Source: a virus. Taken from it: a stretch of DNA of 26,658 nt. The stretch is taken from IMG/VR virus record IMGVR_UViG_3300036823_000075, positions 1 through 26,658 of that record. One strand, written 5' to 3'. The notes beneath the pieces are model-generated. The model searched no databases and had not been told where the DNA came from. It was given only the letters and a program-made list of their open reading frames with translations. The position numbers were made by a program, and so were the translations under genes. Shown one piece after another: positions 11,532 to 26,017 of the stretch; positions within the stretch are counted from its first letter, which is position 1; the number at the start of each line of letters is the position of its first letter.

Positions 11532-12016
11532 CCTTGAGTGATCGCGTAGTACGCCTGCATCCGGATCAGTCCGTCACCATCGCCGACACTGTTAACGGAG
11601 GGTTCGGTCAGCCGGATCGAGTCGAGAACCCGCAGGGTCCCCCACCACATTTCGCCGCTGCCGATGCAATGCAAGTACTTGTCGAAGGTCTCGAAACAGG
11701 CGTTCGCCCGGCGCTGCAACATCGGATCCCGGGCGTTGCCGTTGCCGTCGCGCAGCGGGTCGGCCAGGACGCTGAGCAGCAGTCGCGGGAACCGCATGCT
11801 GTTGACGATGTTCGGCGCCGCCCAGCCGCCGTCGTGGGTGATCAGCACACTGGTCCGTTGGGACTGCTCCATGCGTACGCCCAGCTGGTAGGCGAAGATG
11901 CCTGGCACGACTCGGCCGCTGATGTTGAACGTGTCGACTGCGGTCAGGCACTCAGGTTGCGCTTGCAGGTATTTGGTGGCGCCGGTGACGATGTCATCGC
12001 CCAGGGGTTGGGTCAC
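11528..12016 (-). CDS. tail terminator protein, 162 aa
   Basis: GTG at 12014-12016 in a GTGA overlap; the longer frame upstream overlaps the preceding gene and is compositionally shadow. It has an N-terminal helix typical of terminators (PLGDDIVTGATKYLQAQPECLTAV), then alternating strands (VVPGIFAYQLGVRME, QRTSVLITHDGGWA, FPRLLLSVLADP), a long helix with RRANACFETFDKYLHCIGSG, and a final LIRMQAYYAITQG. Lambda gpU-type terminators form the ring that stops tube growth and docks with the head. Position before the tube and chaperone genes agrees, although two enzyme-like genes intervene here. Its stop overlaps the glycosyltransferase ATG (ATGA). Confidence 0.65.
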   Translation of the reverse strand: MTQPLGDDIVTGATKYLQAQPECLTAVDTFNISGRVVPGIFAYQLGVRMEQSQRTSVLITHDGGWAAPNIVNSMRFPRLLLSVLADPLRDGNGNARDPMLQRRANACFETFDKYLHCIGSGEMWWGTLRVLDSIRLTEPSVNSVGDGDGLIRMQAYYAITQG

Positions 12017-12504
12017 CGCAGTGGCCCTTCCGGGTGCGGGGTGTTGCGGCCCCGGGAGATGAACGAGCTGGCCGGGCCGAGCATGTCGTCCTCGATCGGC
12101 ACGCCCTGGCTGGACTCGGTGTTGGAGATCGGGCCGACGTTCCACGGCACCGGCGCGCCGGGCGCCGCGAAGCGGGGTAGCGGCTGCCAGCCGACCTTGC
12201 GGAAGTAGGCGTGGCTCGGGTAGCCGCCGTGCTTCGGCGAGTAGCCGAAGTGCTCGCTGGCGGCCCATCGGACGTTGCCGCCACCGAAGCTGATCTCTCC
12301 TGCCCAGGTCTCCGGCGTGCTGCGTTCTACGTCGGCTCGCCCGGATGCTTTGAGGCGGCCGGTCTCGACGTGAACATCACCCTCGACGCGAGCGAACACC
12401 ATCAGCAGGACCCGGCTGAAGTTGGTGTAGTCGTAGCTGGTGAAGCCCGCTTCGAGCCGGTCGAACTCCAGGTCGGCGCAACGGGTGTCTACCCGGTAGC
12501 TCAT
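12013..12504 (-). CDS. neck / tail completion protein, 163 aa (HK97 gp10-like position)
   Basis: ATG at 12502-12504, one base after the upstream stop. It contains DYTNFSRVLLMVFARVEGDVHVETGRLKASGRADVE, the pattern of the HK97 gp10-like family (a helix followed by TGxLxxS and a beta part), then NVRWAASEHFGYSPKHGG, typical of the (x)YAxxxExG(x)P segment of that family. Such proteins are small neck components needed to join tails. The C-terminal third (LPRFAAPGAPVPW to NTPHPEGPLR) is Pro-rich and probably flexible. Its TGA overlaps the next GTG (GTGA). Confidence 0.65.
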   Translation of the reverse strand: MSYRVDTRCADLEFDRLEAGFTSYDYTNFSRVLLMVFARVEGDVHVETGRLKASGRADVERSTPETWAGEISFGGGNVRWAASEHFGYSPKHGGYPSHAYFRKVGWQPLPRFAAPGAPVPWNVGPISNTESSQGVPIEDDMLGPASSFISRGRNTPHPEGPLR

Positions 12505-12505
12505 C

Positions 12506-12934
12506 TCAGCCCTCCGGCCCGGCGAGGAAGTTGATCTGGTCCTTCTGGGCGACCTCGATCACCTGGACTTCGAGGTGATGTGCACTGCTGTAGTCCTGTG
12601 CCGGGTCGGCCTGCACCCGCATCTCGAAGGTGCCGGAGACCGGCCCGTCGAGGCAGTGGAAGCGGTCTCCGGCGAGGATCTCGGTAGTGGGGTCGAAGAA
12701 CATCAACCCGACTCGGTCCGGGGCTCGTCCGGCGACGATCGGTTGTGGCTGGTCCTTGCCGGGGCGCTGGAACGACAGGTCGAGGCGGCACAGCATTTCC
12801 CCGGGCACCCCGAGGTAGGGGTCCACGATGGTCTGGAGCTTTTCCCAGGACTGGGTGGCGACACCGTCGGTGAAGTCCAGATCGAGCCGCAGGACCTCGA
12901 CCCGGGAGGCGTAGAGATGCCGCAGTGTCGACAT
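12506..12934 (-). CDS. head closure / head-tail joining protein, 142 aa
   Basis: ATG at 12932-12934 overlaps the upstream TGA by one base; the same frame is open further upstream but that part is Arg-rich shadow. The product starts MSTLRHLYASRVEVLRL and is mostly beta (LDFTDGVATQSWEKL, GEMLCRLDLSFQRPG, DRFHCLDGPVSGTFEMRV), with a late HHLEVQVIEVA strand. Small beta-barrel proteins in this position (SPP1 gp16, lambda FII type) close the head after packaging and form the docking ring for the tail. The assignment rests on gene order and size; I see no diagnostic motif. Confidence 0.62.
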   Translation of the reverse strand: MSTLRHLYASRVEVLRLDLDFTDGVATQSWEKLQTIVDPYLGVPGEMLCRLDLSFQRPGKDQPQPIVAGRAPDRVGLMFFDPTTEILAGDRFHCLDGPVSGTFEMRVQADPAQDYSSAHHLEVQVIEVAQKDQINFLAGPEG

Positions 12935-13428
12935 CAGGAGATCCGGATGTAGGGCGGCCGGTCCGCTCCGGCGTGTGGGTTCTCGATCATCCAGCCCCCG
13001 TTGGGGTCGACGACGATGCCGTTGTCGTAGACGTGGACTCCGCCGTTGGCTACCAGCGACTGCCCCGGCTGGGTGAGCTGGTCGACGGCGAGATCCCACC
13101 AGTAGAGGCCGGTGCGGGCCCCGGCCTGCACCTTCAGCGAGGTCTGGGTGACCCGGCTGTAGGAGTACGACCCGATGGTCTCGGTCTGGAACGGGCTCGC
13201 CGAAATCGACTGGTACGGCTGCTCCAGGACGAGCCGGTCAGCCAGCTCCATGATCGCGAAGCTGGCCAGCTTCGCCTGGTCCGGATCTTCCGGATAGTCG
13301 CTGAGCTGGGTGACGATCGAGAACATCAGCGCGGACTGTTCCAGCGCCGCGGTCGCGAACGGACCGAACGTGGCAGCCGGGCGGCCGGTGAATGCCGCCA
13401 GGTCGTCAATGGTGGGCGGGGTTAGCAT
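12934..13428 (-). CDS. head-tail adaptor (connector), 164 aa
   Basis: ATG after GAGGAGA, 164 residues. The helical N-terminal half (TIDDLAAFTGRPAATFGPFATAALEQSALMFSIVTQLSDYP and DQAKLASFAIMELADRLVLEQPYQ) is typical of the HK97 gp6 / SPP1 gp15 adaptor family, whose rings of helical subunits bind below the portal and extend the channel through which DNA passes. The C-terminal half here is an added beta-rich extension. Its stop codon shares one base with the next ATG (TGATG), so the two are coupled. Adaptor assignment is from size, helix pattern and order. Confidence 0.7.
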   Translation of the reverse strand: MLTPPTIDDLAAFTGRPAATFGPFATAALEQSALMFSIVTQLSDYPEDPDQAKLASFAIMELADRLVLEQPYQSISASPFQTETIGSYSYSRVTQTSLKVQAGARTGLYWWDLAVDQLTQPGQSLVANGGVHVYDNGIVVDPNGGWMIENPHAGADRPPYIRIS

Positions 13429-13438
13429 CGGCGTCTCC

Positions 13439-14101
13439 TCACACCAGGGCGGTGAGCTTCGGCGCGGCCCGCTTCAGCCGCAGCTTCTCCGCCCGCGCGA
13501 TCTCCTCTTCCGGCGGCGGCCGGAGGCGACCATCGCCGCGTTCGGCTTTCATGGCCTCCCAGGTGCCGTCGGCGTAGGTCTTGCCGGGCCACGCACCGGA
13601 CCGGAACATGACCTTCCCGAACCGCTCGACCTGCGCGAAGTCGCTGTCTCGTAGGTCGAGCCAGGTCACTCCGAAGCGGTTGAACGTGTCCTTGTAGGCC
13701 TGGCCACCGACCGCGAATTCCAGTTCGTCGCCGCGGTACATGACCCGCCCGTTGACCGTGAGACCGTCTTCGAGGAAGTGGACCAGGATGTTGCTCTCGT
13801 CGCCCTCGACGATGTTCTCGTCCACCTCGGGCTCGGGGTCCTCGCGACCCTGCTTCTTCGCGAGCAGGTCGCGCAGCATCTTGATCTCTTGCTGCTCCGG
13901 CGTCAGCTCAGTCTCGGGAACCCCTACAGGTACGGAGGTGACGGTGGGGTCGAGGATTGGCGCCGCTTCGCTTTCGGCGGGCCGGGGCTCTCGATCCGCC
14001 AAGTCCTCGGCCTGCGCGGCCACGGGCGGCGGGGCGTCTCGCTTCTCGGCTGGGACTGCACGGGGCTGACGCCGCCCATTAGCTGGTACTCCTCGGGGCA
14101 T
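13439..14101 (-). CDS. conserved-type phage protein upstream of connectors, 220 aa
   Basis: The ATG at 14099-14101 follows AAAGGTGGTGG and lies after the propeller B stop; a longer frame from 14254 overlaps that gene and reads as shadow. The N-terminal ~65 residues are Pro/Ala/Arg-rich and disordered. A predicted helix (LTPEQQEIKMLRDLLAKKQG) follows, then an acidic linker (DPEPEVDENIVEGDES) and a folded beta-rich domain (NILVHFLEDGLTVNGRVMYRGDELEFAVGG ... FGVTWLDLRDSDFAQVERFG). The end is basic. I do not recognise a named family. As it is the first gene of the connector block it may be a head or head-tail accessory protein; this is inference from order. Confidence 0.75.
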   Translation of the reverse strand: MPRGVPANGRRQPRAVPAEKRDAPPPVAAQAEDLADREPRPAESEAAPILDPTVTSVPVGVPETELTPEQQEIKMLRDLLAKKQGREDPEPEVDENIVEGDESNILVHFLEDGLTVNGRVMYRGDELEFAVGGQAYKDTFNRFGVTWLDLRDSDFAQVERFGKVMFRSGAWPGKTYADGTWEAMKAERGDGRLRPPPEEEIARAEKLRLKRAAPKLTALV

Positions 14102-14169
14102 GGTTGGCCACCACCTTTCACCGTCCTTATCGGTGTCAGGCAAAGACCACGGCAGCAGGGCGCGGGCGG

Positions 14170-15195
14170 TCAGTTGTGTTTCACCGGGTAGATCTGCCCG
14201 GTGAGGTGCCGGGCCGCCCCGCTCGCTGCGCCCGTGCCGTACAGCGATATCCACGGGCTGGTGCTGGACCCCACCGCGAGGTAGTTACCGGACGGCGACC
14301 ACGCCGCCGTGTTTCCGTTGGAGGTAGGCAGGGTGGTCGGGTTGGCAAGCTTGGTCAGTGTGGTGCCGTCGAACCCGTACACCGAAATAAACGGGGTGGC
14401 CCCGGAGGCGACAGCAAGATAGTTGCCGGACGGCGACCACGCCACCGCGTACCCGGCAGCGGTGGGCAAAGTGGCCGGATCTGCAAGCTTGGTGAGCGTG
14501 CTGCCGTTGAATGAGTACACCGAAATGAACGGGGTGGCGCCGGAGGCGATAGCGAGGTGGTTTCCGGACGGCGACCACGCCGCCCCGTTCCCGGAGGCGG
14601 TGGGCAGGGTGGCGGGGTTCGCCAATTTCGTCAGCGTGGTGCCGTCGAACCCGTACACCGACATCCATGGACTGGCGGCGATGGCGACGGCGAGATAGTT
14701 GCCTGACGGCGACCACGCCACCGCACGACCGTAGCTGGTGGGCAGGGTGGCAGGGTTGGCAAGCTTGGTCAGGGTGCTGCCATTGAACGCATACACCAAA
14801 ATAAACGGACTGGCGGTACTGCCGATGACGAGGTGGTTGCCCGACGGCGACCACGCCGCCGAAACGCAGGCGGCGGTAGGCAGGGTGGCGGGGTCGGCGA
14901 TCTTCGTCAGAGTGCTGCCATTGAATGCATACACCAACATCCACGGGCTGGCCCCGGAGGCGATAGCGAGGTGGTTTCCGGACGGCGACCACGCCGCCGC
15001 GTTCCCGTTGGAGGTAGGCAGGGTGGTGGGATCGGCGATCTTCGTCAGAGTGCTGCCATTGAATGCATACACCGACATCCACGGGCTGGCTCCGGACCCC
15101 ACCGCGAGGTAGTTGCCGGACGGCGACCACGCCACCGCGTACCCGGTGCTGGAGGGCAGACCACTGTCGGGAAACAGGGCGTAGAGGGTGGGCAT
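14170..15195 (-). CDS. seven-bladed WD40/TolB-like beta-propeller protein, copy B, 341 aa
   Basis: ATG at 15193-15195 with GGAG 8 bases upstream, the site lying in a duplicated remnant of the fibre gene. Its architecture is identical to copy A: head with ALFPDSGLP, seven 46-residue blades with AWSPSGN(Y/H)LA(V/I) and VY(A/G)F(N/D)G(S/T)TLTK, and a closing tail ARHLTGQIYPVKHN that resembles copy A's VKQVTGQVYP. Blades 1-3 and 5 carry the FNGSTLTK variant and blades 4 and 6 the FDGTTLTK variant, so variants are mixed as if exchanged between blades. Like copy A it is predicted to be a closed toroid of beta-sheets, most plausibly an adhesin. No catalytic motif is visible. Possible alternatives are a structural cap or an anti-host protein released into the cell. 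Confidence 0.82.
   Translation of the reverse strand: MPTLYALFPDSGLPSSTGYAVAWSPSGNYLAVGSGASPWMSVYAFNGSTLTKIADPTTLPTSNGNAAAWSPSGNHLAIASGASPWMLVYAFNGSTLTKIADPATLPTAACVSAAWSPSGNHLVIGSTASPFILVYAFNGSTLTKLANPATLPTSYGRAVAWSPSGNYLAVAIAASPWMSVYGFDGTTLTKLANPATLPTASGNGAAWSPSGNHLAIASGATPFISVYSFNGSTLTKLADPATLPTAAGYAVAWSPSGNYLAVASGATPFISVYGFDGTTLTKLANPTTLPTSNGNTAAWSPSGNYLAVGSSTSPWISLYGTGAASGAARHLTGQIYPVKHN
14230..15144 (-). repeat. seven 138-bp tandem repeats, propeller copy B
   Basis: Same 138-base period and same core as the copy A array. Long blocks are nearly identical between the two arrays, for example around GTGGTGCCGTCGAACCCGTA, so exchange between the arrays is possible. Confidence 0.85.
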
Positions 15196-15200
15196 GGCGG

Positions 15201-15243
15201 CTACTCCGTCGCAACATAGACGAGGGTGAGGGTCACTGCGGTC
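15201..15243 (-). repeat. remnant copy of the fibre gene 3' end carrying a ribosome binding site
   Basis: Aligned base by base, 34 of 43 positions match 16296-16338, the end of the 982-aa fibre gene. It still reads TAVTLTLVYVATE-stop, against TAVTVTLVYVATE-stop in the fibre. The shared GACGGAGTA contains the GGAG used by the propeller gene that follows in each case. It therefore marks the edge of a duplicated [fibre end + propeller] unit. The frame is open back to 15290 and reads 29 residues before the stop, overlapping the end of propeller A in another frame. Confidence 0.75.
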
Positions 15244-15261
15244 GGGTTCGTATCGGCTGGG

Positions 15262-16290
15262 TCACGGGTATACCTGCCCGGTGACCTGCTTCACCACGGC
15301 TCCTGGCCCGGTCGCCACCCCAAGGCCTGTGGCGTACACCGATATCCACGGGCTGGCACTGGACCCCACAGCGAGATAGCTGCCGGACGGCGACCACGCG
15401 GCCCCACGCACGGCAGCGGTTGGCAGGCTGGCTGGGTCGGCGATCTTGGTCAGAGTGGTGCCGTCGAACGCGTAAGCCGACACCCAGGGGCTGGCGTTCG
15501 ACCCGACGGCAAGATAGTTGCCTGACGGTGACCACGTCGCCGCGTACCCGGTCCCGCTGGGCTTGGTGGCCGGATCAGCCAGTTTCGTCAGCGTGGTGCC
15601 GTCGAACCCGTACACCGACATCCACGGGCTGGCGCCAGAGCCAAGAGCAAGATAGTTGCCGGACGGCGACCACGCCACCGACTGCCCGTTGCCATTGGGC
15701 AGGGTGGCGGGGTTGGCCAATTTCGTCAGCGTGGTGCCGTCGAACCCGTACACCAGCATGTACGGGGTGGCGTTGACTGGCAGAGCCAAATAGTTGCCCG
15801 ACGGTGACCACGCCACCGATGCGACGGAGGCGGTGGGCAAAGTGGCCGGGTTGGCCAATTTCGTCAGCGTGGTGCCGTCGAACCCGTACACCGACATCCA
15901 TGGACTGGCGTTCCAACCGAATGCGAGGTAGTTGCCCGACGGCGACCACGATGGCATGTACACGGCGGCAGTGGGGGGGGTGGCCGGGTTCGCCAGTTTC
16001 GTCAGCGTGGTGCCGTCGAACCCGTACACCAGCAGGTACGGGCTGGCTCCGGACCCCACCGCGAGGTAGTTACCGGACGGCGACCATGCCACTCCGTTCC
16101 CGGTGCCGGAGGGCAGGGTTACGGGGTTGGCGATCTTGGTGAGGGTGCTGCCATTGAACGCGTACACCGCCACGTACGGGGCAGCACTGAAGGCAACGGC
16201 GAGATGATTACCCGACGGTGACCACGCCACCCCGCTCCCAGTGCCGGTGGGCAAACCACTGTCAGGAAACAGAGAGTTGATGTCAGGCAC
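15262..16290 (-). CDS. seven-bladed WD40/TolB-like beta-propeller protein, copy A, 342 aa
   Basis: GTG at 16288-16290, with GGAG from the end of the fibre gene 9 bases upstream. After a short head (SLFPDSGLP) come seven repeats of exactly 46 residues (138 bases), each with AWSPSGNYLAV, then VYGFDGTTLTKLANP and ATLPT; the seventh breaks off into a different tail (VVKQVTGQVYP). AWSPSG-x-x-LAV is the outer-strand signature of WD40 and TolB-type propeller blades, and seven units would close one ring, the N-terminal FPDSGLP completing the last blade. No membrane span or signal peptide is present. Blades differ mostly at the residues around the blade junction and near the SPW motif. A likely role is receptor or glycan binding on the virion surface, inferred from its place after the fibre. 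It is paralogous to the next gene. Confidence 0.82.
   Translation of the reverse strand: MPDINSLFPDSGLPTGTGSGVAWSPSGNHLAVAFSAAPYVAVYAFNGSTLTKIANPVTLPSGTGNGVAWSPSGNYLAVGSGASPYLLVYGFDGTTLTKLANPATPPTAAVYMPSWSPSGNYLAFGWNASPWMSVYGFDGTTLTKLANPATLPTASVASVAWSPSGNYLALPVNATPYMLVYGFDGTTLTKLANPATLPNGNGQSVAWSPSGNYLALGSGASPWMSVYGFDGTTLTKLADPATKPSGTGYAATWSPSGNYLAVGSNASPWVSAYAFDGTTLTKIADPASLPTAAVRGAAWSPSGSYLAVGSSASPWISVYATGLGVATGPGAVVKQVTGQVYP
15320..16239 (-). repeat. seven 138-bp tandem repeats, propeller copy A
   Basis: Period exactly 138 bases (46 codons). The most constant part in plus-strand reading is the stretch around GACGG(C/T)GACCACG, which encodes WSPSG on the minus strand. Six full units and a seventh with a diverged end. 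The high DNA similarity between units would allow slipping and recombination. Confidence 0.85.
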
Positions 16291-16295
16291 GGGCG

Positions 16296-19244
16296 TTACT
16301 CCGTCGCCACGTAGACGAGGGTCACCGTGACCGCCGTCGCGCCGGTCGGGGTGACCACGATAGGGATCGCCGTCGTCGGCACCGTCTCCATCGAGTAGCC
16401 GGACGGAACGGGCGACAGCTTTTGCAGGGTGCTGCCCACCGTCAGGTATTCCAGCACCAGCCCCGAATTGTCGGGTACCGCCGTGGTGATGGCCCGGGAC
16501 GTGTCGGCGCTCGCACTGGCCGCGTCGGTGTAAACGCGGACCCGGGCCGCCGCCGAGGTCGTCAATGCCAGCAGCCGGTAGCCGGTAGCCATCGTGATGG
16601 TGCCGCTGTAGTTGGTTCCGGCGACCGCACCCGAGGTGGTGTAGGTGGCGGTGGCTCGAACCGGACTACTACCGCCGCTGACGCCAGACACCGCCGTGGT
16701 GACGAACTGCGTGGTCGCCAACTGGGTGGTGTTGGTACCTGCTGTCGCGGTTGGTGCGGAAGGAATTCCGGTGAACGTCGAGGTGCCCGTGACCGTGAGG
16801 TTGGTGCCGACGATCAGGGAATCGTCCGTCTTGAGCGTGTCGGCAGCAGATCGGTACAGGTTGGTGTCCTGTGTAACCGTTCCTGGACCCCAGCCGACTT
16901 TGCCGTCCGCGCCAACGTTCACCCGGCCGAACGAGTCACCATTGACCGCACCACTCAGCAGAGACGTGCCGACCGCCGACAGCGTGGCGGCGATCCCGCC
17001 GGTCATCGTGTCACCGGCCTTGGCGACCTTCAACGCGTCCGCCGCCGCCTGCGCGGTGGAGACCGGCTTCGCCGTGTCGGCGGTGTTGTCGACGTTGGAC
17101 AGTCCGACGTGTGCTTTCGTCAGGCCGGTCGGAGTGCCCGTGAAGGCCGGGGACGCCAGCGGGGCTTTCAGGTCCAAGGCGGCCTGAGCAGCGGTGGAGA
17201 CCGGCTTGGCGGCGTCCGTGGTGTTGTTGACATTGGCCAAACCCACGTCAGCGGAGGTCAGGACAACTACACCCTGCCGCCCTGCAACTGAGGTGACCAG
17301 GTTCGTCGCCGGATCCCCAGCGGGGCCAGTCGCGCCGGTCGCACCCGTGGAGCCCGTTGCCCCGGTGGCGCCAACCGGAACGGTGAAGTTGAAGACGGCA
17401 GCGCTGCTGGATCCCGAGTTGGTGACCGCCGCGTTGCTACCGGGTGCACCGCTGGTCGTTGTACCGATTGCGATCGTGGCTGCGGTGCCCGTCGTGCCCG
17501 TTGTGCCCGTGGCGCCGGTGGCGCCGGTGGCCCCGTCTGCCCCCTTGGCGGCGAACAGCGTCCAGTTCGTGGTGTCGGTGGCCGGGTTAGTCGTTCCGGA
17601 GGCCGAGTTGACGGTCAGCAGGTAGACCTGGCCGCTGTAGGTGACCAGGTCGTTCTTGTAATACTGGGTGCCCGATACCCAGGCGCCCCGGAAGTTGTGA
17701 CCGGCGGCTTGGGTCTCGTAGATCGTGTTCGAACTGGCCGACGGGACTGCGGTTCCGCTGTAGGCGATCAGGAGCCGGTAGGTGCTGCCGCCGTAGGTGA
17801 CGACGTCGTTCACGGCGTAGCTGGTGCCCGAGACCCAGGCCCCCCGGAAGTTGAGGCCGGTGCCGTTCGTGCCAGCTGCACCCGTGGCTCCGGTGTCGCC
17901 CTTGGGAACGGTGAAGTTGAAGACGGCTGCGCTGCTGGATCCCGAGTTGCTAACCGCTGCGTTCGACCCGGCCGCGCCGGTGGTGGTGGTGCCGACCGCC
18001 ACAGAGGCGGCCGTCCCGGCCGTGCCGGTTGCTCCGGTGGCACCTGCCGCGCCCTGCGGCACGGTGAAGTTGAGGACAGCGGCTGAGTTGCTACCGCTGT
18101 TGGTGACAGCCGCGTTGCTGCCTGCCGCCCCGGTGGTGGTCGTGCCCACGGCGACACTGGCAGCTGTTCCCGCAGCACCCGTGGAGCCGGTTGCTCCCGT
18201 AGCCCCGGTCGTACCCGCAGCACCCTGAGGAACGGTGAAGTTGAGGACGGCGGCGGAACTGCTGCCGGAATTGGTGACCGACGCGTTGCTTCCGGCGGCG
18301 CCGGTGGTGGTCGTTCCCACGGCCACGGTGGCAGCCGTACCAGTCGCTCCGGCGGATCCCGTAGCGCCGGTCGCACCAGCGGTTCCGGCCGGGCCGGTGG
18401 GACCAGTCGGTCCCGTAGCTCCAGCGGTCCCGGCGGAACCGACAGCTCCCGGGTCCCCCTTGGAGACCAGCAGACTCCAGCTTGCGGAGGCTTCCGGGTC
18501 GTCCCCGGTCGAGTTCGGCAGGACGGCGATGAACGCAGACCCGTTCCAGGTGACCACATCGCCGACCCCGTAGGTGGCGACGGCGCTGTAGGTGCCCCGA
18601 GGCGTCATCCCGACCGGGCCTCTAGCCCCGTCGTCACCGGCCAGCGCGAGGACCGACCAGTTGATGTCGTCGCCGGGCAGCGGCTCCACACCGACGTTGT
18701 CCTGCACCGCGAAGAACGTAGAACCGTCGTGGGTGACGATCGCCCCGGCCGGGTAGCTGCTACCCACCAACCAGGCCCCGAGGTAGGAGTCGGCCAGCTC
18801 CCACGCCGGGAAGGTGAAGTCGAAGACCGCGTCGTTGTTCGTGCCGCTGTTGCTGATGGCCAGGACGGCGCCCAATCCGCCGTTGGTGACGGTGCCGACG
18901 GTGACGGTCGCCGCATCCCCCTGGTCACCGTGCAGGACCAGCAGCCCCCAGTGGCTGTTGGAGGCGTCTGTGGCCGGGGCAACGCCGGTACTCGCCAGGA
19001 GCGCGACGAAGCCGTTCCCCTCGTACTGCACGACGTCGCCGATCGCGTAGGCGACCGAGACGCTCCAGTACCCCCGGTAGGAGATACCCGGTCCGCCAGT
19101 GCCACCGCCGCCGCCTCCGGCTTCCAGGGCGGCGAGTCGGACGGCGAGGGCAGAGTCCGCCGCGTCCACATAGCCCTTACGGACGGCCTGAACCGTGGTA
19201 CTCGCCGCCGGAATGTCCAGGGGGTTACCGAGAAACTTGGGCAT
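16296..19244 (-). CDS. mosaic collagen-like fibre with carbohydrate-binding-like modules, 982 aa
   Basis: ATG at 19242-19244, AAGGAGG 11 bases upstream. Order: N-terminal attachment segment (LDIPAAS, VRKGYVDAAD), a short coiled coil and poly-Gly hinge (43-52); three modules like family 5/12 carbohydrate-binding domains at about 56-105, 154-203 and 215-261, each with an aromatic, Y-x-x-GDVV-x-x-x-G and a closing W; collagen-like Gly-X-Y stretches (GATGATG, GPTGPTGPAG) at about 264-303, 341-360, 398-411, 448-463, 568-587 and 624-643; four copies of a ~34-residue beta module (VAVGTTTTGAAGSN ... FTVP) between them, plus a diverged fifth near 113-146; two more W-x-x-x-x-x-Y modules at 466-512 and 518-565; then fibre repeats (VGLANVNNTTDAAKPVST, VGLSNVDNTADTAKPVST) and a beta-rich tip ending TLVYVATE. 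It is a predicted trimeric receptor-binding fibre, possibly binding cell-wall sugars. The last codons contain the ribosome binding site of the next gene. Confidence 0.85.
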   Translation of the reverse strand: MPKFLGNPLDIPAASTTVQAVRKGYVDAADSALAVRLAALEAGGGGGGTGGPGISYRGYWSVSVAYAIGDVVQYEGNGFVALLASTGVAPATDASNSHWGLLVLHGDQGDAATVTVGTVTNGGLGAVLAISNSGTNNDAVFDFTFPAWELADSYLGAWLVGSSYPAGAIVTHDGSTFFAVQDNVGVEPLPGDDINWSVLALAGDDGARGPVGMTPRGTYSAVATYGVGDVVTWNGSAFIAVLPNSTGDDPEASASWSLLVSKGDPGAVGSAGTAGATGPTGPTGPAGTAGATGATGSAGATGTAATVAVGTTTTGAAGSNASVTNSGSSSAAVLNFTVPQGAAGTTGATGATGSTGAAGTAASVAVGTTTTGAAGSNAAVTNSGSNSAAVLNFTVPQGAAGATGATGTAGTAASVAVGTTTTGAAGSNAAVSNSGSSSAAVFNFTVPKGDTGATGAAGTNGTGLNFRGAWVSGTSYAVNDVVTYGGSTYRLLIAYSGTAVPSASSNTIYETQAAGHNFRGAWVSGTQYYKNDLVTYSGQVYLLTVNSASGTTNPATDTTNWTLFAAKGADGATGATGATGTTGTTGTAATIAIGTTTSGAPGSNAAVTNSGSSSAAVFNFTVPVGATGATGSTGATGATGPAGDPATNLVTSVAGRQGVVVLTSADVGLANVNNTTDAAKPVSTAAQAALDLKAPLASPAFTGTPTGLTKAHVGLSNVDNTADTAKPVSTAQAAADALKVAKAGDTMTGGIAATLSAVGTSLLSGAVNGDSFGRVNVGADGKVGWGPGTVTQDTNLYRSAADTLKTDDSLIVGTNLTVTGTSTFTGIPSAPTATAGTNTTQLATTQFVTTAVSGVSGGSSPVRATATYTTSGAVAGTNYSGTITMATGYRLLALTTSAAARVRVYTDAASASADTSRAITTAVPDNSGLVLEYLTVGSTLQKLSPVPSGYSMETVPTTAIPIVVTPTGATAVTVTLVYVATE

Positions 19245-19285
19245 GAGCCGGGCGGCCTCCTTCCGGGATCAACTAAAAGTGCAAG

Positions 19286-20836
19286 TCAGCCGACGACAAC
19301 AACGCGGTACTGACCCGAAGTCGGGGCCTGACCGAAGTCGACGGTGACGGTATTGGCGTCGGTACGGGACACCTCGGCGTAGACCGTGTCGTACGGCGCG
19401 GCGGTCGCGAAGATCTGCACCTGCACGTCGCGGGTGTTCAGGCTGTGGGTGACCGCGATACTCGTCGCTGTGCCGTCGCCGATGGTTGCCGAGAACTTGC
19501 GCGGCATCACCGTCAGGTCAACGTGGACGCCGGTGGAGTCGACCACGATGCCCTGACCGGCAACCACCTCCAGACCGGCCGAGGTGACCCCGATGCCGCC
19601 GTTGGCGTCCAGCGTGGCCGAGATGCCGTTGCTGTCGACCGTGATGCCCATGTTCGACGACGGCTTGATCGCCAGGCCGGTCGCCGTACTGACCAGGCCA
19701 CCGGCCGGGTCGGTGTTGACGGCCAGGCCGTTGCTATCGACCGACAGGCCCTTGTTCGCGGCCAGGACCGCGCCGATGCCGGTGTTGTCGACGCTGATGC
19801 CGGAGTTCGGCTTGGCGACGGCGGCCACACCGTTGGTGTCGACCGTCAGACCGCCGGACGGGTTCGCGACCACCACTAGGCCGCTGCTGGACGCTGCCAG
19901 GCCGGACGAGGCGGGCAGCTTCGCCGCCACACCGGCTGCACCGACCTGAAGACCACCAGCCGGATCGGCGACCGCGACAACCCCGGTAGCGTCGACCGCC
20001 ACACCATTGCCTGGCGTGACCTGAAGGCCCGTCGCGTCGACCGAGAGGCCCTTGTTGGTGGCCAGGACGGTCTGTACGCCGGTCGCGTCGACCGCGAGAC
20101 CCGAGTTGGCCTTGATGACCACCGACGCGCCGTTGGCGTCGGTCATCAGACCACCGGCGGTCGTCGGCACGAACTTCAGACCCGAGGCGTCTACGGCCAG
20201 ACCCGAGTTCGACGCGATCTTCGCCGCGACGCCGTTCGTCCCGACCGCCACACCGCCGACCGGGTCGGCGACCACGCCGACGCCCGAAGCGACCGAGATG
20301 CCGCCGTTGGAGGCCGCGATCGCGGTGACCACGTGGTTGGTGATGTCGACCGAGCCGCTGCCCGTGTAGACCGGCGAGGTACCGGCGTTCAGCAGCGCCC
20401 AGTTCAAACTGGTGGTGCCGACCGTGATCGGTCCCGGGGTGATCAGGACGAACGTCTTGTTGCCGTTGGTCGTGCCCTCGGAGACGGTGACTGCCGCGCC
20501 TGGCTCGACCTCGGAGTCCTGGTCGGCGTCCGTCGCCCGGGTCAGGGCCGACGTGGCTCCATTGAAGACATAGATGCCGTTCTCAGCACCGTTGGTCTGC
20601 CCCATCAGCAGGATGCGGTTGCCGTTCGCCAGCGTGACGCTGTCGATCGTGGCACCCGGCGAACTCACGCTGACGTTGCTGGTCGCGGCCACCCGGACCG
20701 CGTTCTTCCAAACCAGACCCGTTGCGATGTTGTCGACGTACTGCTTGGTGACGGCGTCGCTGGAGAGAGCCGGAGCGCCGACATTCTGGATGCGGTTGTT
20801 GTTGAGATCAACAACATTGGTGAAGTTAATAGGCAT
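19286..20836 (-). CDS. fibre protein with triple-beta-spiral-like shaft, 516 aa
   Basis: ATG at 20834-20836 after AGGAGA (8-base spacing). Residues 1-45 (VVDLNNNRIQNVGAPALSSD, AVTKQYVDN) are the attachment motif typical of phage fibre N-termini. Residues 46-150 form a beta-rich domain (NGNRILLMGQ, ENGIYVFNG) also common in phage fibres. Residues ~178-440 hold about 16 repeats of 16-17 residues of the form (G/S)G(L/I/V)xVDxxG(L/V)xV, strongly like the shaft repeats of adenovirus fibre, which form a trimeric beta-spiral. Residues 445-516 are a tip domain (ATSIAVTHSLNTRDVQV ... GQYRVVVVG). The product is therefore expected to be a slender trimeric fibre. Its gene is close behind the capsid gene rather than after the tape measure, so it could be mounted on the head. 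Confidence 0.85.
   Translation of the reverse strand: MPINFTNVVDLNNNRIQNVGAPALSSDAVTKQYVDNIATGLVWKNAVRVAATSNVSVSSPGATIDSVTLANGNRILLMGQTNGAENGIYVFNGATSALTRATDADQDSEVEPGAAVTVSEGTTNGNKTFVLITPGPITVGTTSLNWALLNAGTSPVYTGSGSVDITNHVVTAIAASNGGISVASGVGVVADPVGGVAVGTNGVAAKIASNSGLAVDASGLKFVPTTAGGLMTDANGASVVIKANSGLAVDATGVQTVLATNKGLSVDATGLQVTPGNGVAVDATGVVAVADPAGGLQVGAAGVAAKLPASSGLAASSSGLVVVANPSGGLTVDTNGVAAVAKPNSGISVDNTGIGAVLAANKGLSVDSNGLAVNTDPAGGLVSTATGLAIKPSSNMGITVDSNGISATLDANGGIGVTSAGLEVVAGQGIVVDSTGVHVDLTVMPRKFSATIGDGTATSIAVTHSLNTRDVQVQIFATAAPYDTVYAEVSRTDANTVTVDFGQAPTSGQYRVVVVG
19517..20305 (-). repeat. about 16 coding repeats of 16-17 codons (fibre shaft)
   Basis: Tandem degenerate repeats encoding GGLxVDxxGVxA-type units, residues ~178-440 of the 516-aa fibre. 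Units such as SGLAVDASGLKFV, SGLAVDATGVQTV, KGLSVDATGLQVT and KGLSVDSNGLAVN are clearly related, and alternate units are more alike than neighbours, hinting that the array grew by copying larger blocks of several units. Confidence 0.8.
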
Positions 20837-20852
20837 CTCGGGCGTCTCCTGT

Positions 20853-21317
20853 TTAGGCCTTCAGGTAAGCCGTGCCGGTGTACGGGGCGGAATGCACAAT
20901 GAGAACGGTCTGATCACTCGGGTACTGGATCTCCCCGAACATGACCTGGCCGTTGTCGTCCAGAAGAAAGACGCTCGGAATCAAACCCAGGTGATGGTCG
21001 ATGACCCAAGTGGCCGCAGGAGTCGTCTGATGGTGCGTATATGACGCGACACCACCCGCCGCGACCTGGGCGATCTCCTCATGCAGCGAGGCCGCCTCGT
21101 CTTCCCACTGGTACTTGAACCCACGACCACCACCGGCAGCCGGATCGGACACGTCCAAGTCATCGCCATAAATCCGAGTCGTCGCACGAATGTCGTCCCG
21201 AGGCGCAGTGGTGATCAGCGGGAACGGTGCACGCGGTGACTTCTTTGGCTGGTGCCGACGGTTACGGTTCGAGAGCCGCTCGTCCAGCGGCTGCGAAGAA
21301 CTGTCGGTCCCAGGCAC
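20853..21317 (-). CDS. small virion protein with fibre-tip-like C-terminal domain, 154 aa
   Basis: The first usable start is GTG at 21315-21317, close behind AAAGGG. The N-terminal half is polar and probably flexible (basic RNRRHQPKKSPR, then a Gly-rich PAAGGGRGF). The C-terminal ~55 residues (ATWVIDHHLGLIPSVFLLDD, VMFGEIQYPSD, SAPYTGTAYLKA) follow the pattern THxLG-x-P-x-V...G-x-V...S-APxxGxAYL seen in small beta-sandwich domains at the ends of phage fibres. The 516-aa fibre next door ends with a related domain. It may be an adaptor or cap for the fibres. Homology to a particular family member is inferred from pattern only. Confidence 0.65.
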   Translation of the reverse strand: MPGTDSSSQPLDERLSNRNRRHQPKKSPRAPFPLITTAPRDDIRATTRIYGDDLDVSDPAAGGGRGFKYQWEDEAASLHEEIAQVAAGGVASYTHHQTTPAATWVIDHHLGLIPSVFLLDDNGQVMFGEIQYPSDQTVLIVHSAPYTGTAYLKA

Positions 21318-21351
21318 ACCCTTTACATCGGAAGGAGACTTCGACGCCGAC

Positions 21352-21900
21352 TTATTGATTCTGCCGGTTCAGCTGCGGTCCACCGGGATACAGCTTGTTG
21401 ACGCAAACCAGGAACTTGTCACCCTTGGGGTCGAGGTCCGCCGGGTTCGTCCGCGCACAGTAGATGACCGTCAGCTCGTACTGCTTCACCGTGTCGAGGA
21501 TCTTCGCCTGGTTAGCCGAATTGACCTGCCCACACACCCCGGTTGAGTTCACACAGTCCAGCAGCGTCTGGTTCGTCGTCTGCACAGCCCCGGCAATGTC
21601 CTTCGTCTGCTTTGCTGACTTCCGGGCAGCCGACAGGTTGAACGCATTGGTGACCGCCAACGCCAGCAAGACCACCATCGTCACCGCAACAAGGAAGGTG
21701 ACCAGCCGCATCTGATGCAGGTTCTTGTCCAACGCATCGACCTTCCGGTCACGAGCCTTCGTCTCGCTGCGGACGGTATCGACCAGGTCGGTCATGGTCC
21801 GGTTGGACGCCTCGTTCGCCGCGATCAGTTCGTTAATCGCCAATGAAGACCTCAGCTCCGAAGGGGTCTGCTCCTCAGGGTCAGGCACGGGTTGAGTCAC
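21352..21900 (-). CDS. single-span membrane protein with cysteine-containing C-terminal domain, 182 aa
   Basis: GTG start at 21898-21900 in a GTGA overlap with the upstream stop. Residues 1-62 are hydrophilic and probably helical (ELIAANEASNRTMTDLVDTV), residues 66-88 are a clear membrane span (LVTFLVAVTMVVLLALAVTNAF), and the C-terminal ~90 residues contain four cysteines (C116, C123, C148, C166) suited to disulfides outside the cytoplasm. With KARDRK before the span the likely topology is N-in/C-out, opposite to the 118-aa protein. A cysteine-paired outer domain would suit an envelope-exposed protein such as a superinfection-exclusion or lysis-timing factor, but nothing in the sequence identifies it. 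It lies between the capsid and fibre genes, a place normally reserved for virion proteins. Confidence 0.72.
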   Translation of the reverse strand: MTQPVPDPEEQTPSELRSSLAINELIAANEASNRTMTDLVDTVRSETKARDRKVDALDKNLHQMRLVTFLVAVTMVVLLALAVTNAFNLSAARKSAKQTKDIAGAVQTTNQTLLDCVNSTGVCGQVNSANQAKILDTVKQYELTVIYCARTNPADLDPKGDKFLVCVNKLYPGGPQLNRQNQ

Positions 21901-22085
21901 TTCTTCACATCCTTCAGCTCACTACGCAAGCGAGCAATAAGGTCAGCCTGCAAAGCAAGGATGCGTTTCTGCTCCTCAACCGCCTGCTGCAACTGCCACA
22001 GCGCATCATCAGAGTCATCCCGCTGGTCGTCGCTCATCTGCGGAATGCTCCTCAACAGTGCAATAAACGCCCGATCATCCACCAC
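21897..22085 (-). CDS. small coiled-coil protein, ~62 aa
   Basis: Preferred start is GTG at 22085, with GAGGA 7 bases upstream, overlapping the previous stop by 11 bases; a longer frame from 22145 would overlap the upstream gene by 71 bases. The product is hydrophilic, with an acidic DDQRDDSDD patch and then a helix with leucines spaced as in coiled coils (LWQLQQAVEEQKRILALQADLIARLRSELKD), ending KDVKK. Its TGA overlaps the next GTG in a GTGA, so the three small genes here are translationally coupled. Function unknown; it may partner the coiled-coil parts of the flanking membrane proteins. Confidence 0.6.
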   Translation of the reverse strand: MVDDRAFIALLRSIPQMSDDQRDDSDDALWQLQQAVEEQKRILALQADLIARLRSELKDVKK

Positions 22086-22431
22086 GGCGAGTCCTCGGGT
22101 TCGTGGCCTCATGAGTTTCTTGATCAGTTCGGCGGATGCTGTCACGGACCTTCATCTCAGTGATGAGTTGGATGGCTTCTTCGAGAACCTCAGCAACCTG
22201 CTTATACAGATCGGTCGCAGCAACCGTCTTCGGCAGTAGCTCGCCCCTGATGAAGTCGTTCAACTCCTTCACCTGAGCCTCAGCCCTATCTGTACGTTCC
22301 CGCTCCCGCGACAAAGAACCGCGGGTATACAAGACCAACAGAATGACGATGACGCCCAGTGCGCCGTACTGAACGAGGGTGAGCAGCGGATCAGAGGTAT
22401 CAGCAGCTGCCGCCCAATACACGATGCTCAC
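22075..22431 (-). CDS. small membrane protein with cytoplasmic coiled coil, 118 aa
   Basis: The first GTG (22431) lies almost on top of GGAGGAGGT, so a GTG three codons later (22422, 115 aa) with about 9 bases of spacing may be the true start. Residues 18-36 (TLVQYGALGVIVILLVLYT) form one membrane span, followed at once by positive RGSLSRERERTDR, which predicts N-out/C-in. The remainder is a heptad-like charged helix (AEAQVKELNDFI, AATDLYKQVAEVLEEAIQLI) and a basic tail. No endolysin or known holin motif is nearby. It is the first gene after the capsid gene and overlaps the next small gene. It could be a holin-like protein, but position and lack of a lysin make this a guess; function unknown. 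Confidence 0.7.
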   Translation of the reverse strand: MSIVYWAAAADTSDPLLTLVQYGALGVIVILLVLYTRGSLSRERERTDRAEAQVKELNDFIRGELLPKTVAATDLYKQVAEVLEEAIQLITEMKVRDSIRRTDQETHEATNPRTRRGG

Positions 22432-22616: not shown

Positions 22617-23618
22617 TTACGGCTGGCTGACGTCTGCCACGTAGATCATCTGCTCCGGCCGCGTGATGACCGGCAGAAGGTTCCACTCCAGGAGGTACTG
22701 GCGGGCGCTCGGGTCCGGGTCTTTCCAGGTCTTGGTGTATTTGCCGGTGTAGTTGTCCGGTGCCTCGTCGTCGGCGGTGGGGCCGATGAACATCTCGACC
22801 GGGCGCTGGTCGGTGTAGTTACCCATGAACAGCGCGTTGTCCGAGACGAAGAGGGTGGAGTTACCCGCGTCGTCGTCGTAGACGGTCTCGATGGTGTTCC
22901 AGTTCAGACCCATGAAGCCCGGCAGGGTGCCCGAGGAGTAGTACTGGTCCTTCATGCGGTCGCTCATCAGCAGCGGCGCGGAGGCGCCGTTGGCGGCGAA
23001 CGAGTCGAAGATGTAGGCCATGGTCAGCTCGGTGACGAAGGCGTCCTTGGCCTCGACGCGGCCGTCGCGGCGGATGAGCCGCTTCCAGGCGCGGATGTCG
23101 TTGACGATCTGCTGCGGGGTGGCGGTGTCCCAGCCGACGGTCGGGGTCGGGTGGTGGCTGGCCGGGAACTGGTAGTCGACGAACGCCTGGACGTCCGGGA
23201 AGTCGAAGCTCAGGGTGCCCTTGAGCGCCGCCCAGATCATGTACTCGGCGAAGTTGTCGAACCGCTGGTTCAGGTCGTTGATCTCGCGCAGGACGGCCTG
23301 TTCGGCGTTGGTCGCGGCGAGCTGACCCGGCTGGCGCAGCCAGTGGATGGTGGTCGGCTCGAAGACCTTCTTCTCGCGAAGGTAGACGAACGCGGCGGAT
23401 GCCTGCGAGCGACCGAGCCGGGGCACGATGTGGGCCTCGGAGTTCGGGACGTTCGGCTTGGCGACCATCCGGGAGCCCTTGATGATGTCCCAGACAACGC
23501 TCGGGAAGGGCCACGGCGTCTGCGGGATCGTCGAGAGCATGGTGAGCGTCTCGGGGGTGGTGAATTTTTCGACCACGCCGCGCAGGACAACGGGATCGAG
23601 GAGCGGAATGTTGGGCAT
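22617..23618 (-). CDS. major capsid protein (lambda gpE-like, HK97 fold)
   Basis: 333 aa, ATG at 23616-23618 with AGGAGA 9 bases upstream. The size and sequence pattern fit the lambda gpE major capsid family: LLDPVVLRGVVEKF at the start, KPNVPNSEAHIVPRLGRS, the long helix-like LREINDLNQRFDNFAEYMIWAAL, LSFDFPDVQAFVDYQFP, a WDTATPQQIVNDIRAWKRLI segment, and a beta-rich end LLEWNLLPVITRPEQMIYVADV. It would form the icosahedral shell as hexamers and pentamers. There is no long cleavable N-terminal scaffold domain, consistent with a separate protease-scaffold upstream. A perfect 12-bp hairpin begins 23 bases after its stop, as expected for a very highly expressed gene whose message is ended or stabilised there. 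Confidence 0.92.
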   Translation of the reverse strand: MPNIPLLDPVVLRGVVEKFTTPETLTMLSTIPQTPWPFPSVVWDIIKGSRMVAKPNVPNSEAHIVPRLGRSQASAAFVYLREKKVFEPTTIHWLRQPGQLAATNAEQAVLREINDLNQRFDNFAEYMIWAALKGTLSFDFPDVQAFVDYQFPASHHPTPTVGWDTATPQQIVNDIRAWKRLIRRDGRVEAKDAFVTELTMAYIFDSFAANGASAPLLMSDRMKDQYYSSGTLPGFMGLNWNTIETVYDDDAGNSTLFVSDNALFMGNYTDQRPVEMFIGPTADDEAPDNYTGKYTKTWKDPDPSARQYLLEWNLLPVITRPEQMIYVADVSQP

Positions 23619-23816: not shown

Positions 23817-24227
23817 TCAAAACTTGGCGGTGTTTCGGACGGTGTCCAGGATCATGCCGAGGTCGGTGAGTGCGGCGCTGTCGACGCCGACGAGCATGTT
23901 GTATTTGAGGATGCCCTGGATGACGATGTTGCTGACCTGGTCATTACCGACGTTGACGGTGGTGCCAGTGTCGACGGCTCGCCGTAGGACCCCACGCGCG
24001 ACCTCGGTGCCGTCCGAGTGCGCGTTGTTGTAGGCGTAGTACTTCTTGTCGCTGGTCTTGATGCCGAGGAACGTGCCTGCGGCGAGTACGCCCTGTCCGG
24101 ATGCGATCGTCACGCCCTTCTGCGAAAAGGCCGCAGTCGAGTAGAGGATTTCCGGGTCGATGTAGTCGCCGGTCGGGCTGACAAATCCCGGCACCGGGAG
24201 TTTCTGGTACTGGCTAACGGCGGACAT
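23817..24227 (-). CDS. head decoration protein (lambda gpD-like)
   Basis: 136 aa; ATG at 24225-24227 preceded by GGAGGTTAGGG. It shows the layout of the lambda D / HDPD decoration family: a flexible N-terminus (PVPGFVSPTGDYID), a beta-rich core with VLAAGTFLGIKTSDKKYYAYN, DGTEVARGVLRRAVDT, and a C-terminal IVIQGILKYNMLVGVD segment. These proteins bind as trimers at the three-fold positions of the expanded shell and lock it against internal DNA pressure. It is directly downstream of the protease-scaffold and directly upstream of the capsid gene, the same protease-D-E order as lambda. A strong hairpin (23772-23801) follows its stop, so part of the transcription may end here. Confidence 0.85.
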   Translation of the reverse strand: MSAVSQYQKLPVPGFVSPTGDYIDPEILYSTAAFSQKGVTIASGQGVLAAGTFLGIKTSDKKYYAYNNAHSDGTEVARGVLRRAVDTGTTVNVGNDQVSNIVIQGILKYNMLVGVDSAALTDLGMILDTVRNTAKF

Positions 24228-24271: not shown

Positions 24272-25387
24272 TCAGCGCCGCGCGGCGCTCATTTCGGCGT
24301 AGCGCTTGATTTCGGCGTCGATGTCGAGCTTGTGCTGGTCGGCTTTCGGATCGGTTTTGCCGACCTCGGTCGACAGCTTCACGATCGGCTGGGCCGGAAC
24401 GAGCTTGTCGAACATGGCGGCGTTCGAAAGCTTCAGTTCGACACGGGCTTCGCGCTCGGCCGGGAGGATGTAGCCGCCGGAAATGAGCGTGTCGACGGCG
24501 TGTTCCGCCTCGCGCTTCTCCATGGCTTCGACCCGGTTGGAGAGGGTCACGTTGGTGGTGGCCAGGTCCCGGACGGCGGTGACGACGGTGTCGTTGCTGA
24601 CCTTGTCGTCGTCGCTCTTGGAGAGCTGGACGACCCCGGCCTTGGTGAGCGCGTCAACGATGGTCTGCGACAGCTCGGTCTGCTTGGTGCTCTCGGCCTG
24701 TACGGCCTGGAGGGCCGACACGTCGATGCTGTGCTTCTCTTTGAGAGCGGTGAGCAGTTCCTGGAGGGACGGCTCTGCCACGGTCTCGGTCTTCTCCTCG
24801 GGCACTTGCGTCTCCTCGACAGGTTTTGCGTCGACCGTTTTCGTTGAAAGCAGCACGGCTGCTTCGTCTGATCTATCGGTTGACGCGGAAAGGATCTCCT
24901 CGTAGTCGTCGAGGTCGGTGACGTATGGCCGGTTGGTGACGCAGGAATGGAGCAGGGTGGGTCCTACGTGGTTTCCGGTTTTGGTGTCCTCGTAGTCGAG
25001 GGAAAGCATTGCGGAGGCACCGAGGTAGGTCTTGCCCATTCGTGAGGCATGGTCGGCGTCGCGGATGTCGAGGACGGCGTAGAGCTTGCCGTTTTCGATT
25101 TGGACGTCGACGACTTCACCGATGTTCCGGTCCGGTTCCTCGCTGTGCGCGTTGTTCTTGTCCGCGAGGGGCACCTGGACGATGGGGCAGACGCCGGATT
25201 CGAAGTTGGACTTCACCTTGTTGAAGAAGTCGTCGTCGACGTCAATGTTCTGCCCGGTCTTCGGGTGCCGCAATGGCCCCTTGTTGAGCAGATGTTTCTT
25301 GAACAGTCGCCCCGTTTTCGTACGGGCCAAATTGACATACCCGTCCCCGTCGGACGGAACGATCACAAGATCATGGTTACTAGACAT
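24272..25387 (-). CDS. prohead maturation protease with scaffold-like C-terminus (Mu I-like)
   Basis: 371 aa, ATG at 25385-25387 with GGAGG 6 bases upstream, overlapping the nuclease stop. The first ~165 residues look like the Mu gpI serine protease family: VPLADKNNAH with candidate catalytic H81, NIGEVVDV, KLYAVLDI, then YLGASAML with candidate nucleophile S125, and a closing SCVTNRPYV. The rest (about 170-371) is charged, Lys/Glu/Val-rich and predicted coiled coil, ending in KRYAEMSAARR. Members with such a tail act as both scaffold and protease: they direct assembly of the capsid shell, cleave themselves and often the capsid protein, and leave the prohead. No separate scaffold gene is visible, which supports a protease-scaffold fusion. 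The catalytic residue assignments come from pattern comparison and are not certain. Confidence 0.82.
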   Translation of the reverse strand: MSSNHDLVIVPSDGDGYVNLARTKTGRLFKKHLLNKGPLRHPKTGQNIDVDDDFFNKVKSNFESGVCPIVQVPLADKNNAHSEEPDRNIGEVVDVQIENGKLYAVLDIRDADHASRMGKTYLGASAMLSLDYEDTKTGNHVGPTLLHSCVTNRPYVTDLDDYEEILSASTDRSDEAAVLLSTKTVDAKPVEETQVPEEKTETVAEPSLQELLTALKEKHSIDVSALQAVQAESTKQTELSQTIVDALTKAGVVQLSKSDDDKVSNDTVVTAVRDLATTNVTLSNRVEAMEKREAEHAVDTLISGGYILPAEREARVELKLSNAAMFDKLVPAQPIVKLSTEVGKTDPKADQHKLDIDAEIKRYAEMSAARR

Positions 25388-25991
25388 TGAGCGCCTCCAT
25401 CAACGGCGCACGTAGATAGGCCGCTGCGGCTTCTAATCGGTCTGGGTTATCGCCAAAAAATCCAAGGCCGGTGTTGCAGGAGTGGCAGACGATGCCCCTC
25501 CCCCTGCCGGTGCTATGGCAGTGGTCGAACACTGGAGAACGTGCAGTCCTACTGCCGAGAAGGTCGAAGTCGTGGGCGCAGATGACACACTTTCCGTTCT
25601 GCGCAGCAACGGCTCTGTGGAAGTCTCGCTCTGTCCAGCGCATGACTTTCCACGCCTGCGTACCTCTCCAATGAGAACAGCGGCGGCATCGCCCGTCATA
25701 GTGCTGACCCGGCTCGGTGATCGGATGGCCGTCCGTACAGTGGGTACGACCGGGCAGACGTCCTACGCCACCTTTACGGTAAGTCGTCTCGCCGCGCAAA
25801 ATCCAGGCGTGGTAGTGCGACCGGCACATAGCCTTTGAGTGCGGCTTTTCGACGCACCCAGATACCGCACACGCCTCGACTGTGGGAACGCGCGCCGCTC
25901 GGCGGCACTCCACGTTTCGGCAGGCGCGAGCGTCCGAGCGCTGCCCCCGCAGGGAGCCTTGACAAACGACGCATTGCCGTTCGTCGCCCAC
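25380..25991 (-). CDS. zinc-rich HNH endonuclease, endonuclease VII type (likely free-standing homing nuclease)
   Basis: I prefer the GTG at 25991 (203 aa) because GGGAGGT lies 5 bases before it; an upstream ATG at 26039 would overlap the preceding gene. The C-terminal third matches T4 endonuclease VII: C135-x2-C138 and C169-x2-C172 for the structural zinc, D156-H157-x-H159 for the active site, and N173 right after the last cysteine. This family cleaves branched or specific duplex DNA. The N-terminal part holds further zinc-type motifs: C7-x2-C10 with C24-x4-C29, C41-x4-C46 with C56-x2-H59-Y, and C85-x3-H89 with C102-x2-C105. Such stacked knuckles are common DNA-recognition parts of phage HNH proteins. 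The gene sits inside the head operon between the minor head and protease genes, an odd place for a packaging resolvase but typical of a homing nuclease. Its TAG overlaps the protease ATG by 8 bases. Nuclease call strong; homing versus resolvase unresolved. Confidence 0.87.
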   Translation of the reverse strand: MGDERQCVVCQGSLRGQRSDARACRNVECRRAARVPTVEACAVSGCVEKPHSKAMCRSHYHAWILRGETTYRKGGVGRLPGRTHCTDGHPITEPGQHYDGRCRRCSHWRGTQAWKVMRWTERDFHRAVAAQNGKCVICAHDFDLLGSRTARSPVFDHCHSTGRGRGIVCHSCNTGLGFFGDNPDRLEAAAAYLRAPLMEALNV

Positions 25992-26017
25992 GATTACCTC
26001 CCGGTGTCTACCGGGTC

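Follow-up and report, generated by a model that had tools for sequence, protein, structure and literature searches.

Why should a tailed phage carry long fibre genes and putative adhesin genes directly behind the gene for its major capsid protein (MCP), and where on the virion would their products sit? The question is raised by the window analysed here, a 26,658-b fragment of a tailed-phage record (IMG/VR IMGVR_UViG_3300036823_000075) in which the structural genes all lie on the minus strand, including every gene of the locus and of its flanking backbone given below. The MCP gene (22617–23618; PF03864, E 1.2e-29) forms the upstream border of an 8.3-kb island (14170–22431), which an earlier note on this DNA had placed between the MCP gene and the head-tail connector genes, with coordinates and gene content that proved correct. 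The same note had remarked on the departure from lambda-type gene order, and this stands: every island gene precedes the connector genes and the tape measure gene (8502–1918), and none occupies the usual fibre position downstream of the latter. The intergenic spacing within the block, −71 to +66 b, is like that of an operon. As judged from sequence, the locus is a real adhesin-exchange site in a conserved backbone, assembled from known parts. Our reading, to which we give a probability of about 0.5, is that it is the variable receptor-adhesin site of siphophages that share a PF03864 capsid, in which a chain of two proteins, p154 and fib1, is docked on the capsid or neck (we take the lineage to be siphophages from its gene order; links between PF03864 and morphotype are presumed as background).

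We compared the locus with the MCP loci of relatives. A scan with the single protein gave 23 viral loci and a profile scan, of which the best 80 of 144 relatives were kept, added 61 new ones, bringing the total examined to 85 (84 viral loci and that of Microbacterium phage Magritte). The viral loci extend no further than 10 kb from the MCP gene and many are short, and the Magritte locus spans 49 kb; open reading frames (ORFs) of unnamed contigs are mechanical longest ORFs. Near-copies occur among the loci (L026/L027, L011/L012, L067/L075 and L076/L077/L078/L081), and the counts given here refer to records rather than lineages. Behind the locus lies p271 (13439–14101), a conserved gene of the backbone that was present in 63 of the 85 loci; its start is probably near 14101, as inferred from relatives, and its longest ORF begins at 14254. 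Across these 63 loci the gap between the MCP gene and p271 ranged from −67 b (an overlap) to 8,065 b, with a median of 540 b, being at most 250 b in 19 and at least 3 kb in 12. Only 19–33 b separate the two genes in four loci (L024–L027, two of which are near-copies). For L059, p271 was called on an ORF starting inside a propeller frame and the gap of 5.6 kb is approximate. Adhesin-like genes lie in the next two gaps instead in Magritte, L058, L066, L104 and L105 (the last two judged by eye). The comparison of synteny that the earlier note had proposed reveals a variable locus within a conserved backbone, with fibres changed, moved or absent.

Sequence comparison further indicates that the core of the locus is a two-gene cassette, p154 (154 aa (amino acids); 20853–21317) and then fib1 (516 aa; 19286–20836), which in this lineage takes one of three places within the capsid-connector segment. 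When the 85 loci were searched with profiles built on the C-terminal domain of p154 and the N-domain of fib1, nine p154-fib1 pairs were detected in eight of them, with p154 immediately upstream in 9/9; neither the L020 pair nor the second one of L007 had contributed to the profiles. In L055 and L059 the cassette separates the MCP gene from p271; in L006 and L007 it follows the MCP gene, and their longer contigs (G001 and G002, respectively) show p271 or connector-block genes downstream. Elsewhere it occupies the gap between p271 and the connector gene (L065), the gap between the connector gene and p197 (L080) or a place after the connector gene (L092), and in L020 it is upstream of the MCP gene. 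The order p154 then fib1 also holds in G001, G002 and G004, and the pairing recurs in gp87-88 of Rhodococcus phage E3, in gp55-56 of Yvonnetastic and in Trina (E 3e-6 to 5e-5 on the p154 side); likeness to p154 was not detected in Myrna gp110 (E 0.13).

The earlier note had listed p154 as a fibre tip protein alongside two fibres, two propellers and two membrane proteins. The rest of that list holds, but the tip role was rejected in favour of a place at the base. Because the C-terminal domain is common to p154 relatives while their N-termini differ, and because the structure model shows a disordered N-terminus, a helix (residues 70–87) and a confident beta domain (91–153, pLDDT >90), p154 looks like a base adaptor with a portable C-terminal domain, and that domain alone is shared with 15 other loci. 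A motif, GRGxxYxW[EQ], followed by a helix is present in p154 of the window, L006, L007, L055, L059 and L065, as well as in the N-terminus of a different, collagen-bearing fibre of 440 aa in L056, which follows the MCP gene. Of the 11 loci whose MCPs are closest (73–84% identity), 6 have it, against none of the 74 others, many of them short. The p154 copies upstream of terminase lack it, as do 79 unrelated fibre loci (a search with the L056 fibre returned 80 loci, mostly through collagen matches, of which 79 were new), and the docking segment of L055 p154 had no match in named phages.

The partner of p154 is built of a beta domain (residues ∼37–185), a repeat shaft of ∼240 aa of the adenovirus-like beta-spiral type and a C-terminal domain (423–516). 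The structure PDB 9nx3 matches both end domains and 9qgo matches the shaft, and residues 6–192 match phrog_2647, labelled "head decoration" (E 5.7e-73); a structure search with the fib1 model returned matches for the C-terminal domain only (Z ≤6.0). In the window, G001 and G002, fib1 has 514–516 aa and carries the repeat shaft, which is absent from the copies of ∼260–265 aa in L055, L059, L065, L080 and L092. Among 19 fib1 N-domains placed in a maximum-likelihood tree, one clade (99/98) united E3 gp88 with the eight first copies from the capsid-connector segment, and the upstream or distant copies of G001, G002, G004 and L020 fell outside it. One distant arrangement, in contig G004 (L045:9122-12836, reverse-complement), places a phrog_1084 protein, p154-like and fib1-like genes and additional fibre genes well away from the MCP gene, and the site between MCP and p271 is empty there.

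Beyond fib1 the locus encodes candidate adhesins. The second fibre, fib2 (982 aa; 16296–19244), combines collagen runs (E 1.1e-4) with CBM5/12 modules (E 6.5e-21), and fib1 and fib2 together show a fibre architecture of shaft, collagen and carbohydrate-binding parts. A 108-b piece of fib2 (17046–17153) is the sole DNA-level match to named phages, being 78.7% identical to minor tail protein genes of Arthrobacter phages Pureglobe5 and Odyssey395. The paralogues propA (15262–16290) and propB (14170–15195) each contain seven repeats of exactly 46 aa, are 66% identical to each other and are predicted WD40-like beta-propellers, with WD40-type Pfam matches reaching 6.3e-18 and 2.4e-23, respectively. 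The window propeller was found in 0/13 relatives, a search that had no positive control, and searches with propB gave 4 stretches in viral contigs and 57 in genome contigs, none of them confirmed. Among relatives, the propellers of G001 have ∼40-aa repeats and no significant similarity to those of the window (best E 0.37), L059 has propellers with 40-aa repeats, L055 a Gly-rich pair, L080 a GH16 protein, L056 a metallophosphatase and Magritte a GDPD protein (gp27); L066 carries a GDSL-like gene between the connector gene and p197, under the curated cut-off. Such exchanged tips fit a receptor-binding role.

The sequences themselves show a variable site in a conserved backbone, the pairing of p154 with fib1, the exchange of tips, and a motif and a clade specific to the segment. 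Taken as a mechanism, p154 would attach to the virion by its N-terminal GRGxxYxWE/helix segment and receive fib1 on its C-terminal beta domain, the 240-residue repeat shaft would extend the fibre, and fib2, with its collagen and carbohydrate-binding modules, would act together with the twin propellers as distal adhesins for host-surface glycans; the chain order, the glycan binding and the docking site are parts that we infer. Selection on host range would then retain the p154-fib1 base and swap the tips; as the docking point, we rate the capsid or neck a little above the tail. A bolder form of this proposal, which we put forward tentatively and think may well be wrong, is a phage-head display locus in which the conserved docking peptide, GRGxxYxW[EQ] with its helix, would hold any one of several fibres on the capsid or neck, so that lectin propellers, glycosidases and phosphoesterases are exchanged on it between relatives independently of their tail receptor proteins.

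As judged from sequence alone, the fibres may stand on the head, the neck or the tail: to head or neck we give about half of the probability and to the tail a little less, leaving the remainder open. The head fibres suggested in the earlier note are consistent with the segment clade of fib1, with the segment-specific motif of p154 and with the second fibre cassette, equipped with a different adaptor, that G001 and G002 hold upstream of terminase. Because adaptor N-termini differ between the two sites of one phage, two docking sites are suggested. Several observations weigh against a head or neck position, however. We rejected the "head decoration" labels as proof of head location, since the same labels are borne by copies far from capsid genes: the upstream-of-terminase copy of G001 matches phrog_2647 equally (1.2e-71), the gene for the 9nx3 "capsid decoration protein" of a C1 mycobacteriophage lies near 138 kb (the MCP gene is near 50 kb in Sebata), and the label is found on genes just before the tape measure gene (PSS2), after the lysis genes (Yvonnetastic) or in isolation (Trina). 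A table of the PSS2 paper lists this "capsid decoration protein" under the name "Lambdoid tail collar/fibre decoration protein (gpH)" (PMC2784084). One solved structure related to the fib1 domain, 9efk, comes from the portal-tail complex of LME-1. The separation of clades is also imperfect, as the second segment copy of fib1 in G002 groups with Myrna and Sebata, and the fib1 model is poor (mean pLDDT 41.6), with only residues 447–516 usable. Furthermore, the best DNA match of fib2 is the "minor tail protein" gene that follows the tape measure gene in Pureglobe5, and named phages carry their propeller relatives in regions that are tail-fibre-like or unassigned. The sole fibre of a phage is usually its tail receptor fibre. 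Contig G013 (137.6 kb) has a single fib1, that of the segment, and the ORF lists read for parts of G013, G014 and G003 show nothing fibre-like beyond the tape measure gene, nor does the examined part of G002; for this reason the G013 cassette may be the main tail receptor fibre.

The lack of fibre-like genes in these ORF lists, the lone fib1 of G013, the LME-1 structure and the PSS2 name, together with the cassettes upstream of terminase or far from head genes in G001, G002 and G004, speak for an account in which the same modular adhesin is a receptor-binding fibre of the tail tip, whose place in the capsid-connector segment reflects only that insertions are tolerated at that point of the late operon. 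We regard this as a strong competitor, a little short of an even chance. It sits less easily with the first segment copies of fib1, which form a clade apart from the upstream copies, and with the adaptor N-termini that differ between both sites within one phage. Within the head-or-neck share, the fibres might instead form a collar or whiskers anchored to p271, conn164 or p197, all connector proteins, as the cassette moves mainly among gaps near these genes (between MCP and p271, between p271 and the connector gene, and after the connector gene). The weak best structural matches of the p154 beta domain include the necks of DT57C and P74-26 (Z 5.7, tied), but values of Z <8 may reflect only a common arrangement, and the L020 pair sits upstream of the MCP gene; taken by itself, docking on the neck is unlikely.

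The MCP-proximal end of the locus encodes two membrane proteins, each with one strong hydrophobic segment. TM1 (22075–22431; maximum KD19 2.52) continues into a charged helical tail and is weakly holin-like (phrog_1350, E 0.068), and in TM2 (21352–21900; maximum KD19 2.75), which has homologues in L006, L007 and L008, the segment is followed by two cysteines. Between them lies a small ORF of 82 aa (21897–22145) with homologues in L006 and L007. As TM1, TM2, p154 and fib1 are colinear and conserved in two relatives (L006/G001 and L007/G002; 54–75% identity), these ORFs of the window are not chance. The earlier note suggested that the module may have entered as a block. A single recombination event that brought in the whole 8.3 kb draws some support from the near-empty sites of relatives, that is, the 19 of 63 loci with gaps of at most 250 b, among them L024–L027. 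We nevertheless reject it as very improbable: L008 has TM1 and TM2 homologues at the site and no fibres, G001 shares TM1 to fib1 with the window and yet its propellers are unrelated and its fib2 is largely different, so that tips are replaced over a constant p154-fib1, and the cassette occupies other gaps in L065, L080 and L092, with three gaps occupied overall. The GC content also differs, at 57.7% for the membrane part against 67.0% for the fibre part.

Other contents of the same site include membrane proteins as well. In L009, the ORFs from MCP to p271 (4348-5635, minus strand), among them one for a TM1-like coiled-coil membrane protein, lie on the opposite strand, as if inverted (by eye); the TM1-like genes of L009, L055, L056 and L057 were all judged by eye. 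The site of L010 encodes a 269-aa protein (11509-12318) with an unusual combination of one membrane segment and then collagen-like repeats. In L028 an 8-kb site (10993-19035) is without fibres and holds an HNH-like ORF and many small ORFs, the last of which, just ahead of p271, encodes a membrane protein.

Several genes of the surrounding backbone deserve mention. A lambda gpD-like head decoration protein is encoded upstream of the MCP gene (23817–24227; PF02924, E 6.7e-13), and p271 is followed by conn164 (12934–13428), a head-tail adaptor-like protein by a weak match (phrog_4931, E 0.011) that is found in 56/85 MCP loci. A glycosyltransferase gene (10398–11531) between the connector and major tail protein genes is retained in relatives (39–69% identity), and its product may modify a virion protein. 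An Endonuclease VII-like gene (25380–26039; phrog_2633) before the protease gene, of which a distant relative (35%) lies between the gpD-like gene and the MCP gene in L016 and L017, is a probable mobile homing-type gene. In contig G002 (L039:3877-7737, minus strand), a long insertion in the terminase ORF resembles an intein, by eye from the translation.

The nearest named phage is Magritte (OR553905, genes 13–39), whose MCP (gp21) is 65.7% identical to that of the window. It shares the order protease/scaffold, gpD-like protein, MCP, connectors, glycosyltransferase, major tail protein and tape measure, and it too has extra adhesin-type genes within the MCP-connector segment. It differs in that p154-fib1 and the propellers were not found in genes 13–39, and in that two PF23140/phrog_240 proteins and the GDPD enzyme protein are encoded between its conn164 and p197 homologues. 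Literature searches on Magritte and on 9NX3 returned no paper. Closer in arrangement are G001 (IMG/VR 3300036773_000165) and G002 (3300020170_000001), with TM1-TM2-p154-fib1 colinear after an 83–84% identical MCP; they differ in their unrelated propellers, in other distal genes and in the second fibre cassette upstream of terminase. For the earlier note, the same gene order throughout a well-described cluster with tail-borne fibres would have spoken against head fibres, and such an order does occur in part. In the cluster-C-like myophages E3 (gp86-gp90), Myrna (gp111-112) and Sebata (gp115), fibres of the fib1 type are encoded between MCP and sheath, and no report that we saw places these fibres within the virion. 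E3 gp88 falls in the segment clade, but the N-terminus of gp87 differs, and all three phages have contractile tails and an MCP without detectable homology to that of the window. In Myrna a minor capsid protein is assigned just upstream of the MCP, and the passages seen of that source do not place the fib1-like gp111 (PMC7150772). The 9nx3 protein shares both fib1 end domains but has 242 aa and no shaft, and its gene is away from the MCP gene.

Head-borne adhesive fibres have precedents. According to the sections consulted, the head spikes of RcGTA consist of a base protein, Rcc01079, bound N-terminally to the capsid, and a flexible fibre, Rcc01080, and attach particles to the capsule (PMC7296036). 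The likeness lies in the design of a base protein plus an adhesive fibre, which the motif and the portable C-terminal domain of p154 may fit; unlike our locus, RcGTA has a pentamer base on the vertices and, as far as the extracts seen go, a fibre gene outside the head-tail cluster (PMC11409702). The head fibres of phi29 and T4 Hoc are described as attachment aids in the part of a review seen (PMC7602432), and the capsid fibres of phage 7-7-1 contact flagella, their proteins being unknown according to the excerpt available (PMC12796354). Overall, the parts of the locus are ordinary and their exchangeable arrangement is unusual; the arrangement and the docking motif look new to us, from literature searches of which none was aimed at the motif.

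If the fibres dock on the tail, the locus would be a warning that "head decoration" names on a widespread fibre family are no evidence of location. Should the docking motif instead attach to head or neck, it would provide a natural, interchangeable handle for adhesin display on the capsid, and host range in this actinophage-like lineage would evolve at the head segment as well as at the tail.

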